The notes beneath the pieces were generated by a model. It had not been told where the DNA came from. It searched no databases and saw only the letters and a program-made list of their open reading frames with translations. Both the position numbers and the translations under genes were made by a program. DNA of 20,550 nucleotides from a virus: positions 1-20,550 of the IMG/VR virus record IMGVR_UViG_3300049847_000487; one strand, 5' to 3'. Every line of letters starts with the position of its first letter. Within the stretch, counting starts at the first letter, position 1. This document shows, in pieces, positions 6,020-20,239 of the stretch.

Positions 6020-8617
6020 GTGAATATCTTTGAACTCTCTACTGCATTTGATAAAGCCCTCTTGTTAAGAGATAAGGGGGCTTTGCACCGTTTGAGAGAT
6101 ATTGAGGATAACCTCTCTGAGGCACTCTATTTAGCCTATAAGGACGCACGCAAGGAGTACAAAGACGCGCAGGGGACTAGCAGGGAGGCGTCTGCGGCGG
6201 CAAAGAGGCGCAGAGCCTCCATGCTATATGAATCCATAGGCGGCATAGTGGAGGCGCACGCGGCGCAGGCGGTGGCAGAGGTGGGTAGTCATGTTATGAC
6301 CTACATAGAGACTGCCGCACAGCAATCGCACGAGATGCTACAAGAGCAGATGCAAGACGCCGTTTTTAACCATGCGCCCATAGAGGCAATACGGAAGGTG
6401 GCGGGGTTCTATTCGGGAGAGAACTCCCCTCTTGAGAAGATATTCAAGGGGTACAGTGAGGAGGATAAGGCACTCTATGAAAAAACCATATTAGAGGGTC
6501 TGGCGCAGGGGTACTCTCCGTCTAAGATGGCAGGTATCCTCTCTAAGGCGGTAGAGATAAGCCGTGCGCGTGCGGAAACCATAATGCGTACAGAGAGCCT
6601 CCGGGCGTATAGGGAGGTGTCGAGAGAGACGTATGAGGCGAATAGTGACGTAGTGGAGGCGTGGGCATGGAACGCACATTTACCCGATAGGCGCACCTGT
6701 GCGGTATGCACCGCACTACACGGCACGATTTGGAAGGTAAGCGTGCCAATGGGCACTCACCCGAATTGCCGTTGCGCGATGGTTCCCATAGTGCGCTTCA
6801 ATGACAAGTGGCTTAATGGTCAATGGCAAGGGGAGGCGTGGTTTAAGAAGCAGGACGAGGATTACCAAAAGGCGGTATTGGGCAAGGCAAAATTTGAGGC
6901 GTACACGGATAAGAAGATAACCCTGCGTGACCTCATAGGATACCGTGAAAGTGAGACTTGGGGTGCGGTGCGTTGGGAGCGTAGCCTAAAAGACGCACTC
7001 ACAGAACCACGTGCTAAAGGCGCATACCCTCCCGTATTCCGTTCCGCACCGTCTGCAAACCCCACACCCGCAAAGGCAAAGCAGGCAAAACCCTCCGTAA
7101 CGCCTCCACAACCCACGCAGAGCCTCTTCCCCTCCGATCTGAGTGCATTTACCCATGTAAAGGACTTAGGAGGGAGTACAGGTGCTACGCTCGTTAAAGA
7201 CGCAGACGGGGTACTTTATGTTATGAAGCGTGGTAGTAACCCCGAACACCTTTTGGCAGAGATGGAAGCAGATACCTTCTACCGTGCGGCGGGGGTGAAT
7301 GTACCAGAATTTCAGAAGTACATAGACGCAGACGGCAAACCCGTCAAAATCGCTAAATTCGTAGAGGGCAAGACCCTTGCAGAGGTGCGTGCAAGTGGGG
7401 GAGACGTAGCAGGCTTTGTCAAAAAAGCGCAGGCGCACTTTTACACCGATGCCCTTATGGGGAATTGGGACGTTATAGGCTTGAGTGCGGATAATATCCT
7501 CATAGATAACGCAGGCGCGGTATGGCGTATAGATAACGGGGGCGCACTAGGCTACAGGGCGCAGGGTAGCCTAAAGGGTTCGGCATTTACGGAGAATCCC
7601 TTAGAACTCATTACTATGAGGAAAGACAAAACGCACGCGGCGCAGGCGGTGGGGGTGTTTGGGGACGTAGATATATTCCAACTTGCCGACCAGCATACCC
7701 TATATGGTAAAACCTTAGAGGCAAACCTTAACCTTATCTCTGATGCAGGGGTAAGGGAGACTATGAGGAAACGCCTTGAGAGTGCGCGTACAGTTTTTGA
7801 GACTGTGGGGGATATGAGAGCAGACCAGTGGAAGAGTGGGTACACCGATCTGATAGCAGAGTATATGCTACGGTGGCGGCAGGAGGGTGTGGTAGAGGAG
7901 ATGCCTGCCTCCCTACACGGCGCACTAGGTGCGGTTACCTTCAAAGACTCGGCGGGTAAGGAGTTCGATAGCCTGCGGGGTTCTAATGGCATTATGAGGC
8001 ACGCCGAGCGCGTGGTAACCAACACGGGCGGGAACTACCAGTATTTCAGTGAATGGAGTACACGGCAAGCGGGTAGTTCGTGGAGTGAACCTCCTCTCAT
8101 GTTAAAATACCGATCCGCAACAGCATGGAGAAATACACCCGTAAAGGATTACTTTTGGCGTTTGCCAGTAGCAGAGGGTGAAAAGGCTTTCAAAGACAAT
8201 GTACCAGACGCAGGTATATATGACCGCACTTTTGCGGCGATGCACGCCTTTAATATAGAGTTCTTGCGGAAAACTACCTTCCTGAATAACGACACCGTAA
8301 AGCGCACTTTGAAACTAGGGCGCACGGAAGATATCGCAACCCTACGAGATAAATACAAAGTAGATATAGGACAAAAAGGGGTACAATTTAAGAGAGGAGC
8401 TTGGGAAAGTACCTCTATATCACGCCCTGTATACCCTTACGGGAACACCCTCACCGTATACACGGAAGTACCGCACCATAGGGTATTGAGTAATTATTTC
8501 TTTTCAAAAGGGGCAAATAGTCATGATATGTTCTACGGGGATGGGGAGAATGAGTTCGTAGTAATGCTAGAAGGGTTAGGCGCAGATGTTAAAGCCTATG
8601 GAGGGCAGATTGATTAA
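6020..8617 (+). CDS. MuF head protein with kinase-like and ADP-ribosyltransferase-like domains
   Basis: An 865-residue multidomain protein, far longer than a plain MuF protein (roughly 250-400). Residues about 150-258 form the MuF domain: RAETIMRTE and WNAHLPDRRTCAVC (Cys 227/230), then HPNCRC (Cys 250/252); such proteins sit inside or at the portal of the head. A Pro/Ala/Lys-rich linker (about 336-370) leads to a kinase-like domain (about 378-560): LGGSTGATLV glycine loop (382-391), Lys 403, GNWD (481-484), SADNILID (489-496) and IDNGGAL (504-510). These match the catalytic Asp, metal Asn and DFG-like Asp of PI3K/HipA-type kinases. The C-terminal part (about 640-865) has LGRTE (Arg 768), ESTSIS (STS 797-799) and GENEF (Glu 843/845), the R-STS-ExE triad of ADP-ribosyltransferases. 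It starts with GTG 3 bp after the portal. MuF is secure; the two enzymatic domains are motif-based inference. Confidence 0.88.
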   Translation: MNIFELSTAFDKALLLRDKGALHRLRDIEDNLSEALYLAYKDARKEYKDAQGTSREASAAAKRRRASMLYESIGGIVEAHAAQAVAEVGSHVMTYIETAAQQSHEMLQEQMQDAVFNHAPIEAIRKVAGFYSGENSPLEKIFKGYSEEDKALYEKTILEGLAQGYSPSKMAGILSKAVEISRARAETIMRTESLRAYREVSRETYEANSDVVEAWAWNAHLPDRRTCAVCTALHGTIWKVSVPMGTHPNCRCAMVPIVRFNDKWLNGQWQGEAWFKKQDEDYQKAVLGKAKFEAYTDKKITLRDLIGYRESETWGAVRWERSLKDALTEPRAKGAYPPVFRSAPSANPTPAKAKQAKPSVTPPQPTQSLFPSDLSAFTHVKDLGGSTGATLVKDADGVLYVMKRGSNPEHLLAEMEADTFYRAAGVNVPEFQKYIDADGKPVKIAKFVEGKTLAEVRASGGDVAGFVKKAQAHFYTDALMGNWDVIGLSADNILIDNAGAVWRIDNGGALGYRAQGSLKGSAFTENPLELITMRKDKTHAAQAVGVFGDVDIFQLADQHTLYGKTLEANLNLISDAGVRETMRKRLESARTVFETVGDMRADQWKSGYTDLIAEYMLRWRQEGVVEEMPASLHGALGAVTFKDSAGKEFDSLRGSNGIMRHAERVVTNTGGNYQYFSEWSTRQAGSSWSEPPLMLKYRSATAWRNTPVKDYFWRLPVAEGEKAFKDNVPDAGIYDRTFAAMHAFNIEFLRKTTFLNNDTVKRTLKLGRTEDIATLRDKYKVDIGQKGVQFKRGAWESTSISRPVYPYGNTLTVYTEVPHHRVLSNYFFSKGANSHDMFYGDGENEFVVMLEGLGADVKAYGGQID

Positions 8618-15208: not shown

Positions 15209-15417
15209 TGGCACAGAAATACGCAGGGTGGGGGAAACCCTACAGAATGAAGTACGCACACTACTTTAAGGATTCTCCTCTAAGCCTCTGCGGTATAGTG
15301 ATATTCATAGGCGCAGGGGAGGAGAACCTTGACAATGCTTCCCACACCGCAGAGGGGAATTGCAGAGTGTGCGAAAAAGCACGGCAGGCACGGGAAAAGG
15401 TACATAGTGCGGTATGA
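15208..15417 (+). CDS. small zinc-finger-like phage protein
   Basis: A 69-residue protein with the pattern MKYAHYFKD..LSLCG (His 18, Cys 28) and, near the C-terminus, NCRVCEKARQ (Cys 52/55). Many phages encode small proteins of this His...LCG...CxxC layout, which probably bind one zinc; their function is not established. The gene overlaps both neighbours (TGATG before, ATGA after), so it is translated with the neck genes. I see a possible stem in GGCGCAGGGGAGG but nothing regulatory. Confidence 0.7.
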   Translation: MAQKYAGWGKPYRMKYAHYFKDSPLSLCGIVIFIGAGEENLDNASHTAEGNCRVCEKARQAREKVHSAV

Positions 15418-15839
15418 ATGAAACAACGGCGGTAAACAAATTTCTCTATGAGCAGATAACCGCAGACCCTACTTTACAGGGATTGGTGGGGGACAGGGTG
15501 TACATGGATATACCTCCTCCTCAATCCTCTTTCCCTCTGATAATTGTAGGGTTCCTTGCCTCTACGCCTCTTCACAAAAACGGAGGCGGCATTCTCCTGC
15601 ACCGTCTAATCTATTCTGTGCAGGCGGTGGGGGCAGGGGACTCCTACGCACCGTTAAGCGCAATCGCAGGGGCACTGGATACTTGCCTAGTGCAAAGTTA
15701 CTGCCTCTCGCAAGATGGGTATACCTTTGAGAATATATCCAAGCAATCCGCACTCCAATACACTGAGACCGTAGACGATAGGCACTTTAAGCACTTAGGC
15801 GGCATTTATGCTATTTTGGTGCAGGTAGGGGAACTATGA
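15414..15839 (+). CDS. tail terminator / tail completion protein (DUF3168-like)
   Basis: A 141-residue protein resembling the minor tail or tail-terminator family that caps the tail tube and joins it to the head. The N-terminal helix MNETTAVNKFLYEQITADPTLQGLV, then GDRVYMDIPPPQSSFPLIIVGFLAS, with the IPPxxxxFPLIIVG core, a strand HRLIYSVQAVGAGDSYAPLSAIAGALDTCL and a final HLGGIYAILVQV are typical. The ATG overlaps the previous TGA (ATGA), and its own TGA overlaps the ATG of the long tail gene. The position before the tail tube gene supports the call. Confidence 0.8.
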   Translation: MNETTAVNKFLYEQITADPTLQGLVGDRVYMDIPPPQSSFPLIIVGFLASTPLHKNGGGILLHRLIYSVQAVGAGDSYAPLSAIAGALDTCLVQSYCLSQDGYTFENISKQSALQYTETVDDRHFKHLGGIYAILVQVGEL

Positions 15840-18800
15840 CCACATACCAGATCGCCACAGATGATTTTACTCCTGATTCTTCAGGGGTAAATCTCAATAA
15901 CATACTCCGACTACGGCAGAAACAACTCCCTACAGGTAGTACGGTGGTGTTCGCGAATGCCTGTAATACTAAGAGTGGCACACAGGTAACCTCTGCAAAA
16001 GGCAATCACGGGGTTTTGTCTACGGCGGATGATGACTACGTACACTATGTGCCTCCCTCCTCCCCACGGGGCGCAGACTATAGCGGGTTTTGGTTCTACG
16101 AGAGCGATTCAAATGGCACGGTTGCCCCTTATGTGACAATAGGCGCGGCGGGTGATAGCAATATCAATATTGAACACACCCAATCTTATACGTTTCGGGG
16201 TGCGTTTCGCGTCAATGAACTCCCTGTAAGTGGGCAGTATGGGATATTCTACACTACGGTAACACACCCAACAGACTATAAAGGGCATGAGGCATTCTAC
16301 GGTACAGACGGTAAAATCCGTGTACGTATTATCCAAACCCTGAATACGGATATGATCGGTCTAGTGAGTACGGAGACTTTTGCCCTCAACACAGACTACA
16401 TAGTACACGTGACCTATGACGGGAGCAGGAACGCTTCAGGCGTACACGTGTACTTGACGAACCTAAACGCAGGCACGTGCGCGGAACTCACTATGAGTAA
16501 TGAGGATGGAGTAAGCACGCTCAACGGTGCAGGTACTCTCCTCTCTTCCGAGCAACAGTTCACACTAGGCAATCAGCAGAACTTTAACAGGTTCGGCATG
16601 ATAGGCTATATGTGGTTTGCAGAGTTTTCTAAGGTGGTACGCACGGGTATTACGAGTGTGGTATCTTGGGCAACCCTCCCTGCTAAAGACGCCTCACACT
16701 TGATATATCAGGACTGCACGCGGGGGTACGGGAGTGGGTTCGCAGATGGTGGCACGGCGGCACTCACAGTAAGCCTTGCAGGTGGGTGCGCGTGGTTACC
16801 TGATGCCCCTGATCAATTAGGCGGTAATGGTGGGTTCTTTTGGACTAGAGACACAACAGCAAACCTAGCAAACATAGAGGTAACCAATGAGGCTTCTTAT
16901 AGGTTTACCTCTGGTAACTTCTCCATAGAGTGTTTTGCACGGTACGCGCACAACCCTACGTCTAATACCTCTCCCTACGCAGGTACTCTTCTCTGCAACT
17001 ATGGCGGCGCGGGTGGGTGGGCACTCCTTTTTATGCCTAGTAGTACGGCTACTGCAATCGGTCAACCCACATACGCGAATAAACTTTGCGTATATGATGG
17101 TACGGCATTCCGCAGTAGCGGGTTGACCTGCACGGATAACGATTGGCATCATTATGCGGTCACATTTGACGGCACAAACTACCGATTCTATGTGGATGGC
17201 GCACTAGGTGCAACGGTGGCGGGTAACCAACCCTCTTCTGATACGGGTACTCTCACAATCGGCACTTGGAAAGATGGGGGCGTGCAGGGGTGGCGGGGTA
17301 ATATTGCCAACGTCATACTCTACAATACTGCCCTAAATTTGGCGGCGGTGCAGGCAGATGCAGTACGGTACGAAACGAGCGCGATCTATTCCCTGACCTC
17401 CCCTATTGATACTACAGAATGGAGTGGTGCTACCTCTCTGTACCTCCCTCTAGTCCTCCCTACGGGTACGAGTGCGGAATACCGCGTAGGGCATGGGGCA
17501 AGCGGGGCGGCGGCTACCTCCAACAAAGAGGCGGATTCTTGGACAAGTGCGGCAAACGGCGCGAACACCCTCACAGAAGGGGAAGGACAGTATTTTGACA
17601 TAGACGTAAAACTCTACGCGAACTCTGCAAAGTCTGCCACGCCGTTGCTTACCTCCGTTACTGGTACGGAAATCTCTCTTACCTATGAGGCGGCGGCGGT
17701 GACTCCTGTAAGTGCGGAGCAAAATACGTTTCGGTGGTATGAGGATGACGGCGCACTAGGTGCGGGTACTCCCGTCGAAGCGGCAGATACGGCTATTGCG
17801 GTATCTAAGGAGGAGACTTTACGCCTCCGTTTTGGTATATTGGCATTGGAAGATGGGCAGGGACGTTACTATCTCCAACACCGTATAAACGGCGCGGATT
17901 GGGAGACTACCACAGCAGGTAGCACAGGGGTACGCATTACCTCTTCTTCCAATTTCACCGATGGAGACAGTACCACGCAGGTACTAACCTCTCCTGCTAC
18001 CTACACAGGAGGGGAGGGAGTGGAGACGGCGCGTAACACGTCAAACTATTTCCCTCTTACCAATGAGGCGGTAGAGATAGAGTACAATCTCTACTTTGCA
18101 GATACCCTTAACCTAAGAGACAGGGTAGAATTTAGGCTACTTACTACTACTTCATCCACGCACGGCACGGGCGGCGAGCCTCTGACGGCGTACACGGTTA
18201 CCCCAATAGCGCGTATCAGCGCAAGGAGCATAACAATGCGGAAAATAACAAGCTCTGCTACGCAGGGCGCGTACATTGGATTAGAGAGTACAGCGGGTAC
18301 GCCAGTGGCGGCAACAAAACGCCTCCCCTCTGTATCATTCCTACCTCAAAAGGTGGTGAATCGGAAGCGGGTAAAACCCTCCCATTCCCGATTTGGCAGA
18401 GGTCACACCAAAGGCAAGGGGCGCACGGAAGGTACGTATGAGGCAGAGGGTTCTTTCTCTGAGATACTCTACCTCCTCTCCTCTATGTGGAGTAAAAACC
18501 CTGCTAGTGTGTACCTCCTCACTACTACGAATGATTCTGATAACTACACCCTGACCTTTAGGGGTGCAACGACAGGAAACATTGCGGCGAACGCTTCGGC
18601 GGCTACTATCGCTACAGCGATACGTGCCCTCTCTACTATCGCAGATGCAGAGGTGCAGGTAACAGGGAGCGCAGGTTCCTACAAGGTGTACCTCACAGGC
18701 GCACTCACATACGCAGAGGATAGCCTCACAGGGGCAGGAGACGGGTTCACCGCATTGGCAAACACGAACGGATTTGTACCTGCCTCTTTGGGGGTATGGA

Positions 18801-19753
18801 CGTTTACGCAGGATGGGAACGCCTCACACTCCTACACGGCGTCATTCGGCGGGGTGACCTCTGGTAGTATTGCAGGTAATGCAAATACGGCGGCGGTGCA
18901 GGCGGCATTTGAGGCTATGAGTACCATAGATACGAATGTACTTGTGGAACTCGTATCCTCTAACGTCTACCGCGTTACCTTGTTGGGCGCACTAGCAGGC
19001 GATACCCGCCCCTTGCAGATGAGTGGTACGGGACTTTCCGCAGGCCCTACGGTGGCGGCGATCTCCTCCCTTTACAAGTGGCTATTCGTCCCACGCCTAA
19101 AGTGTGATGAATCCCCACAGACCTACACGCTTGAGAAGGGGAACTGTTCGCGTGCCACACAAGTACCCTATGTGGCACTCTCCTCTATGGAACTCCGTAG
19201 CAACGATAACGAACTCACCCTTAACGGGAATATTTTTGGCAGGGTGATGGATGAGACAATCACGCTCTCCGAAGGGGTGGCAGACGTTGCGCCGCGTCTC
19301 ATTGACCCGGCGGGGGTGAATATTTATATAGGTACAAGCCTGAATAACCTTACCCTTTTGGAAGAGCCTCTTGAGAGTAGTTTTTCATTCGGTACGTCTA
19401 AGAAGCCACGTAACACACAAAACAGCGCGTACACGTCATTTACGGGCGTTACAGGCACACCCTACGAAACTACCTTCACTTTTGTACTCCCGAAAAGCGA
19501 TGAGGCTTTGACGGAATTGGATAATCTCGATGACGGTACGCGGGTATACATAGTGTGGGAAGTGGAAGGGGCAACATTGGATACCTACTACACGGAACGG
19601 CTACGGATCACAATGGCGGCAGACCTCACAGGGGGATCGCATGGAGACAGTGACGACGCATACGCGGTAACCTTCACCGCAGACGTGGTAGAGGATAGCA
19701 CGCTCGGCGGCGCGATGAAAATTGAGGTAGATACTACTCTCTCTACTTTGTAG
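15836..19753 (+). CDS. LamG-bearing protein fused to the major tail tube protein
   Basis: A continuous 1305-codon frame. Residues about 75-285 and 330-510 are two concanavalin A/LamG-like domains; the second shows DNDWHHYAVTFDGTNYRFYVDG (from about 434). Residues about 629-797 resemble the FRWYEDDGA..A domain seen in surface and tail proteins. From Met 801 the sequence is a tail tube protein: AYIGLESTAGTPVAATKRLPS, then GTYEAEGSFSEILYLLSSM, then two tandem Ig-like repeats (about 888-985 and 986-1075; YTLTFRGATTGNIAANASAA and YTASFGGVTSGSIAGNANTA). It continues YKWLFVPRL (1080) and ELTLNGNIFGRV to the end. Tube proteins polymerise into the DNA conduit; LamG-like domains bind glycans. An optimal internal ribosome site precedes Met 801, so a separate tube product of 505 residues is likely. 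The first ATG overlaps the previous stop. Confidence 0.85.
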   Translation: MTTYQIATDDFTPDSSGVNLNNILRLRQKQLPTGSTVVFANACNTKSGTQVTSAKGNHGVLSTADDDYVHYVPPSSPRGADYSGFWFYESDSNGTVAPYVTIGAAGDSNINIEHTQSYTFRGAFRVNELPVSGQYGIFYTTVTHPTDYKGHEAFYGTDGKIRVRIIQTLNTDMIGLVSTETFALNTDYIVHVTYDGSRNASGVHVYLTNLNAGTCAELTMSNEDGVSTLNGAGTLLSSEQQFTLGNQQNFNRFGMIGYMWFAEFSKVVRTGITSVVSWATLPAKDASHLIYQDCTRGYGSGFADGGTAALTVSLAGGCAWLPDAPDQLGGNGGFFWTRDTTANLANIEVTNEASYRFTSGNFSIECFARYAHNPTSNTSPYAGTLLCNYGGAGGWALLFMPSSTATAIGQPTYANKLCVYDGTAFRSSGLTCTDNDWHHYAVTFDGTNYRFYVDGALGATVAGNQPSSDTGTLTIGTWKDGGVQGWRGNIANVILYNTALNLAAVQADAVRYETSAIYSLTSPIDTTEWSGATSLYLPLVLPTGTSAEYRVGHGASGAAATSNKEADSWTSAANGANTLTEGEGQYFDIDVKLYANSAKSATPLLTSVTGTEISLTYEAAAVTPVSAEQNTFRWYEDDGALGAGTPVEAADTAIAVSKEETLRLRFGILALEDGQGRYYLQHRINGADWETTTAGSTGVRITSSSNFTDGDSTTQVLTSPATYTGGEGVETARNTSNYFPLTNEAVEIEYNLYFADTLNLRDRVEFRLLTTTSSTHGTGGEPLTAYTVTPIARISARSITMRKITSSATQGAYIGLESTAGTPVAATKRLPSVSFLPQKVVNRKRVKPSHSRFGRGHTKGKGRTEGTYEAEGSFSEILYLLSSMWSKNPASVYLLTTTNDSDNYTLTFRGATTGNIAANASAATIATAIRALSTIADAEVQVTGSAGSYKVYLTGALTYAEDSLTGAGDGFTALANTNGFVPASLGVWTFTQDGNASHSYTASFGGVTSGSIAGNANTAAVQAAFEAMSTIDTNVLVELVSSNVYRVTLLGALAGDTRPLQMSGTGLSAGPTVAAISSLYKWLFVPRLKCDESPQTYTLEKGNCSRATQVPYVALSSMELRSNDNELTLNGNIFGRVMDETITLSEGVADVAPRLIDPAGVNIYIGTSLNNLTLLEEPLESSFSFGTSKKPRNTQNSAYTSFTGVTGTPYETTFTFVLPKSDEALTELDNLDDGTRVYIVWEVEGATLDTYYTERLRITMAADLTGGSHGDSDDAYAVTFTADVVEDSTLGGAMKIEVDTTLSTL
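18223..18238 (+). promoter_or_regulatory. internal ribosome site and in-frame start of the tail tube protein
   Basis: AAGGAG at 18223-18228, a seven-base spacer, and ATG at 18236-18238, in the same frame as the 15836 start (exactly 800 codons on). It sits exactly where upstream LamG/FRWxxDDG domains end and tail-tube homology begins. This would give a 505-residue tube protein ending at 19753 in addition to the long form. Confidence 0.7.
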
Positions 19754-19825: not shown

Positions 19826-20239
19826 ATGCAGAAGAAATTAGAAGTCATAGGGGAAGAGGTGGCAGAGAGTATGCCCCTTGAGGCAGATGTAAACACCGCA
19901 GAGGCAGAGGAGTTTGATTTTGCCGATTATATGGAAGAAACGGTACGCATACCCTGCTATGTGGAAGGGAAGGTATTCCATGTATTCCACAGAGTACACT
20001 CTCGCACGCTCGCCTATCAGATGAGGCTTGAGACACTAAACGCCGACCTTGAGGCAAAGCGTATTTCGCACGGAGATTTTGTCAAAGAGGTATACCTCCC
20101 TCTTATTAGTGGGTGGGATATGAAAAAGAAGGGGGAGCCTATTCCCTTCTCGCTAGAGGCACTATTAGGGATGCCTGATGCAGTATTTCAGGCGATTGCC
20201 TCTGCCTTGCTAACGGCGGTAAACGTCCCAAAGTCGTAA
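19826..20239 (+). CDS. tail assembly chaperone, short (gpG-like) form
   Basis: A 137-residue acidic N-terminal and helical protein (EEFDFADYMEETVRIPCYVEGKVFHVFHRVHSRTLAYQMRLETLNADLEAKRISHGDFVKEVYLPLISGWD) with PFSLEALLGMPDAVFQAIASALL near the end. This is the usual plan of the tail assembly chaperone that coats the tape measure protein during tail assembly. It begins at an ATG behind AGGAGG and lies between the tail tube and tape measure genes, as in lambda-like phages. A slippery CCCAAAG lies four codons before the stop (sense codons GTC CCA AAG TCG TAA), and the -1 frame stays open for 76 codons, giving the gpG-T equivalent. Confidence 0.85.
   Translation: MQKKLEVIGEEVAESMPLEADVNTAEAEEFDFADYMEETVRIPCYVEGKVFHVFHRVHSRTLAYQMRLETLNADLEAKRISHGDFVKEVYLPLISGWDMKKKGEPIPFSLEALLGMPDAVFQAIASALLTAVNVPKS
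20227..20233 (+). other. -1 ribosomal frameshift site CCCAAAG
   Basis: The heptamer is in the correct phase (C CCA AAG) two codons before the short form's TAA. The -1 frame continues without a stop from 20233 to the TAA at 20461-20463. Downstream, GAGTACC (20254-20260)/GGTACTC (20297-20303) and inside it GGGAAG (20272-20277)/CTTCCC (20287-20292) can form a nested hairpin, about 20 bases from the slip site, farther than usual. Confidence 0.8.

Follow-up and report, generated by a model that had tools for sequence, protein, structure and literature searches.

A siphophage tail tube gene fused in frame to an N-terminal adhesin-like arm, with a candidate internal start at the junction

The tail tube gene of the virus studied here forms one continuous frame with an 800-residue N-terminal arm, and a second start with its own ribosome-binding site (AAGGAG-N7-ATG) lies at the junction, the stop codon being common to both forms. 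It is probable, as judged from sequence comparison, that this is a dual-product gene, in which internal initiation yields a tube protein whose N-terminus is free, in addition to a longer, adhesin-bearing form. In such a scheme, a siphophage tube gene would have gained an N-terminal adhesin arm (a LamG and an FRW domain, see below), with its original ribosome-binding site and start codon retained in frame. Initiation at 15836, coupled to the tail terminator gene by an ATGA overlap, would produce the 1305-aa arm-tube fusion, and initiation at 18236 the normal tube protein of 505 aa, free at its N-terminus. Both products would be made, the short form constituting most of the tube; some long subunits would co-assemble with it in one mixed and sparsely decorated tube, from which the putatively sugar-binding arms may project to bind host or environmental glycans.

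Gene layout and the start codon at the junction

The window, i.e., the whole stretch of DNA analysed, is an IMG/VR virus record of 20,550 bases. From left to right, it encodes a terminase, a portal, a MuF-type protein, a major capsid protein (matching PHROG 10, E 4e-47), neck genes, a tail terminator, the 1305-codon frame and a tail chaperone, and the features described below between 15414 and 20239 all lie on the + strand. The MuF protein (6020-8617) has 865 aa with PF04233 at residues 155-254, followed downstream by stretches that resemble a HipA kinase and an ADP-ribosyltransferase by eye only. The tail terminator gene (15414..15839; Tail_completion_gp17-like, PF11367, E 8.7e-6) adjoins the long frame upstream, its TGA overlapping the long start as ATGA at 15836. 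As initially annotated, the long frame (15836..19753) comprises 1305 codons and no internal stop, and codon usage scores frame 0 best over nearly its whole length. The tube gene thus occupies the position between the terminator (15414-15839) and the chaperone (19826), and in most relatives it follows directly 3' of the terminator gene. The zero-frame part of the tail assembly chaperone (19826..20239) was recognized by its position and by an in-frame heptamer. This heptamer, CCCAAAG, lies at the end of the chaperone gene (20227-20233), and the -1 frame remains open to 20463 (76 more codons), which is the classic layout of a gpG/gpGT-type programmed frameshift.

At the junction, a Shine-Dalgarno (SD) sequence AAGGAG (18223..18228) precedes, with a 7-nt spacer (18229-18235), the ATG of codon 801 (18236..18238), and the positions in the initial annotation proved exact. 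Its statement that the tube sequence begins precisely at this codon was likewise confirmed: in a 72-row alignment, Met801 falls in the same column as Met1 of 71 homologous tubes, and conserved positions follow. By homology, the internal ATG therefore corresponds to the start codon of normal tube genes. The anti-SD energy of the internal site is -7.7 kcal/mol, a value reached by 14% of in-frame positions, so by energy alone the site is moderately unusual at most and not decisive; combined with homology, it becomes strong. When a start codon was required to have an energy of ≤ -5 kcal/mol at positions -18..-5, 0.9% of the in-frame codons of the window frame qualified, one of them exactly on the homologous start. 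The energies of the internal and the long start (-7.7 vs. -7.6) are alike, and a large excess of the short form is therefore not predictable from sequence.

Domains of the tube part and of the arm

Homology, AlphaFold2 and Foldseek agree on the identity of the C-terminal part (residues 801-1305, 18236..19753, 505 aa). It is about 20-29% identical to the 71 homologous tubes, which came from loci fetched with the capsid protein and with the tube alignment and are about 330 aa long. Structure prediction, which had been suggested as a check, returned a tube fold with a core pLDDT > 90; Foldseek matched the model to the P74-26 tail tube (8ed0, E 1.5e-9, 543 columns, TMt 0.68), the T5 tube (9iny, E 1.3e-7) and 8xan (TMt 0.76), and the matches also include the SH-Ab15497 major tail protein. 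On this model, residues 801-1305 fold into the two tandem beta-sandwich domains of a siphophage tail tube protein of the P74-26/T5 type. The same residues had no Pfam match, PF18906 (Phage_tube_2) included, and sequence searches of the PDB returned spurious antibody matches or nothing. The greater length relative to most homologues includes an insert of roughly 180 aa (18494..19039, tube residues ~87-268) made of two copies of a module of about 80 aa, which is absent from most relatives and found as single copies in three tubes (L082, L149, L262); the initial annotation did not list this insert. The module follows the pattern xYTLTFxGATTGNIAANASAAxIxTALxALSTIG, sits in different loops of different tubes and has similar counterparts in other major tail and sheath PHROGs. 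It has the look of a mobile decoration unit.

The N-terminus of such tubes is a sensitive site. P74-26, whose solved fold comes nearest to this one, has its N-terminal Met packed into the ring interface, and a flexible N-terminus controls assembly (PMC10034513); in T5, deletion of the N-terminus impairs tube formation (PMC5717097). By analogy with both phages, a plain tube form with a free N-terminus is probably needed here as well, and the retained start would supply it.

The initial annotation had placed two LamG-like domains and an FRWYEDDG domain in the arm. One of the LamG domains held: residues 356-505 (16901..17350) match the Laminin_G_3/concanavalin A-like family PF13385 with E 7.7e-16 (8e-18 on the segment alone) and 59 bits against a gathering threshold of 27.6. 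The other did not, as residues 1-340 (15836..16855) gave no Pfam match even at E 5 and are LamG-like only by eye. The FRWYEDDG domain (17729..18217, residues about 632-794, with the last strand at I791-I794) proved to be a real family of phage protein domains with the signature FRW(R/Y)xDDG, having 27 invariant columns in one alignment (A5) and aligning over its full length with that of L359 in another (A7). A tblastn search with this segment matched the prophage of genome G528 with E 2e-10. The end of the family, PLDTYTVTPKWTI in L358, corresponds to PLTAYTVTPIARI in the window, so the arm stays in frame to about residue 794 and only some six residues remain as a linker. This linker, SARSIT (residues 795-800, 18218..18235), overlaps the internal ribosome-binding site. 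The structure model of the FRW domain is beta with low confidence (pLDDT 58), and the fold search with this model found no PDB match at E < 0.001. The domain is also N-terminal in tail-hub-like proteins of Armatimonadota-type genomes (L251, L252, L264), which makes it look like a general tail adhesin module.

Extended tubes in viral contigs and in Armatimonadota-type prophages

A survey of 113 distinct related tubes, drawn almost entirely from viral contigs, found a genuine N-terminal extension in the window alone. Apparent extensions in four further loci (L133, L125, L115, L190) were rejected as GC-rich frames or overlaps with the tail terminator gene. Where a tail terminator was recognisable (111 loci), its stop is usually followed by the tube start within 30 nt, and the 2.4 kb of the window are therefore an insertion before the tube. 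Searches of viral contigs and GenBank phages with the tube, the arm or the FRW segment found no close relative of the window contig, and the matches of the LamG segment in GenBank phages were all weak. At least nine of the surveyed loci have a separate long ORF between terminator and tube; genes of this kind were seen in L226, L095, L108, L126, L127, L135, L152, L176, L177 and L178. The one in L226 (2712-4913) is a glycoside hydrolase of family 6 (Pfam, E 4.5e-38), while the others had fn3 or weak cellulase-type Pfam matches only and resemble GH26 by eye. These other genes, as judged mostly by eye, begin like signal peptides, contain Pro/Thr linkers and have catalytic parts that resemble GH26 or cellulases. 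Cargo thus occupies the slot before the tube, elsewhere in the viral-contig survey in the form of separate genes, and this slot is a suggested hot spot for cargo of the carbohydrate-active kind.

The comparison with related phages proposed in the initial annotation therefore gave a split answer: the other tubes of the viral-contig survey are unextended, with cargo, where present, in separate genes, but fusions do recur in Armatimonadota-type prophages. The latter were found by profile searches of 251-291 genomes from the phylum of an Armatimonadota MAG (G002). In two of them, G528 and G585, an FRW domain and a PF18906 tube (E 1e-18) share one 548-aa frame, in which codon 191 is an internal ATG that follows AGGAGG at a 7-nt spacing. 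At the DNA level, these assemblies are 96.8% identical, and their fused ORFs are 100% identical in protein with 2 synonymous differences. Domain order and the 7-nt SD spacing are as in the window; in contrast, LamG is lacking, the tube matches PF18906 in Pfam and is only ~20% identical to that of the window, the FRW arm being the common part.

The search with the tube family of the window matched 13 genomes of the phylum. In 5 of these (G524, G538, G500, G442, G382) the tube carries a full N-terminal arm of about 170-330 aa, two (G418, G371) are cut by contig ends, their junction being marked by a GTG behind a strong SD, and in the remaining 6 the tube is not extended. An F5/8C domain was identified in the arms of G524 and G538, and the group of five as a whole has F5/8C or related domains. 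Since these five arms are mutually homologous and point to one ancestral arm, the origins are few; we estimate about two to three independent origins of extended tubes from these relationships. Four loci, namely the window, G382, G500 and G538, have the extended gene in the tube slot with a chaperone and/or tape measure gene behind it, and an overlap of the long start with the stop of the gene before it was seen in three of these (the window, G500, G538). The gene order is rearranged in G528, G524 and G442, and several of the relatives are MAG contigs. Two prophages (L325, L328) encode the extended tube on one strand and the tail terminator and neck genes on the other, which is unusual within a tail operon; the G524 prophage has a GH5 cellulase gene (L297:3706-4614, PF00150, E 2e-22) between the tape measure and the extended tube.

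A start codon occupies the homologous position in all 9 extended loci, compared with 5-9% of in-frame codons that are starts. A start with an SD energy of ≤ -5 lies exactly at the tube start in 6 of the 7 fully covered loci, against 0.5-3% of codons, and the SD ranks over the extended loci gave a Fisher p of 2.5e-4 with the loci treated as independent. For three genomes (G500, G524, G538), a small choice is involved, since the start codon nearest to the profile estimate was used as the tube start. The exception among the seven is G500, whose internal SD is weak (-3.3), and dual initiation may therefore not hold everywhere. Comparison of G500 with G538 bears on the long form: the frame is kept through the junction at 45% protein identity in the arm and 58% in the tube, and most differences fall at third positions, with a third-position excess in the arm, which indicates that the long form is under selection. 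The interpretation in the initial annotation is supported in part: its dual-start reading gains from the homology of the start to normal tube starts and from the recurrence of the fusion with a junction start, mostly with an SD. The presence of the same arrangement in other prophages makes an accident unlikely. The Chloroflexota-type phylum (of G001) was no source of fusions: the 6 PF18906 loci found in 251 of its genomes all lack one, and a search of 301 genomes returned no FRW domain. The shared modules and architecture provide only a lead to Armatimonadota as the host of the window phage.

Alternative readings and comparison with known systems

An alternative in which only the long form is made, all subunits bear an arm and the junction ATG and SD are relics or a structural Met is unlikely. 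The coupling of the long start to the upstream gene and the poor internal SD of G500 are what it would predict, and three arms per trimeric ring could, on a rough estimate, fit even in a dense all-long tube. It does not explain why start codon and SD are kept together at the homologous position in 6/7 fully covered loci, nor why G418 and G371 use GTG, which would be read as Val if internal, with strong SDs; moreover, the N-terminus of known tubes lies in assembly interfaces. Less can be said for a polyprotein that is cleaved at its short linker, from which arm and tube would emerge as separate proteins with the internal start being minor. The shortness of the linker, the independence of the two parts as domains and the occurrence elsewhere of separate genes in the same slot, glycoside hydrolases among them, would suit such processing, but the linkers SARSIT, TGGSL, SGAEI and GSL have no conserved cleavage motif and a conserved start codon with SD would be superfluous under cleavage, which makes this reading quite improbable. 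Finally, a one-off fusion, in which a stop between two former genes was recently lost or a base mis-called in the window contig, as the initial annotation had allowed, is very improbable: the searched collections hold no close relative of the contig and a stop could be masked by one surplus base in the interval from about 18206 to 18231 (TAG at 18207 and TAA at 18231 in the +1 frame), but the same fused layout with a junction start recurs in several other assemblies, the FRW domain is in frame to within ~6 residues of the junction, with its family end YTVTP in frame up to residue 790, and a single substitution cannot turn any of the codons between Tyr786 and Met801 into a stop. Accordingly, two specific candidates were discarded, a homopolymer error at CCCC 18201-18204, given the in-frame YTVTP of the family end, and a single-substitution stop loss, given that no candidate codon follows Tyr786.

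The dual-product reading has partial precedents. In SPP1 (gp17.1/gp17.1*) and the lactococcal 936-group phages (MTP/TpeX), one tube gene yields proteins of two lengths, the longer adding an FN3 or carbohydrate-binding decoration (PMC8718954; PMC6669499). There, the extension is C-terminal and made by programmed frameshift, whereas in the window it is N-terminal in one continuous frame and internal initiation is proposed; as in these phages, it carries a domain of glycan-binding type (LamG, PF13385, E 8e-16), the binding itself being predicted. Two-polypeptide endolysins consist of two in-frame ORFs with a common stop, the shorter set by an internal ribosome-binding site and start (PMC9430671). 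Phages, therefore, do use in-frame internal starts, although in that case the product is a lysis enzyme and here it would be a polymeric virion component. P74-26 gp93 and T5 pb6 have the same fold as residues 801-1305; the P74-26 tube is smooth and that of T5 has a C-terminal Ig domain, and an N-terminal arm is described for neither (PMC10034513; PMC8718954; PMC5717097). The lactococcal neck passage structure, a non-essential accessory virion protein with CBMs (PMC6669499), is like the arm in its carbohydrate-binding-type modules, but it is a separate neck protein and not fused to the tube. In the literature examined, tube decorations are C-terminal or internal, and two lengths arise by frameshift; an N-terminally extended tail tube was not found in the open-access literature, which is weak evidence of absence.

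For phages of Armatimonadota or related hosts, there is an even chance that mosaic tubes evolved more than once, with the plain form supplied by internal initiation and an exchangeable N-terminal adhesin arm creating a glycan-binding shaft. If true, N-terminal fusion with retention of the ancestral start would be another way to make a mixed polymer from a single gene. It would also bear on how tube assembly tolerates change at the N-terminus, a site that structures place in ring interfaces, and would offer a natural scaffold for display along the phage tail.
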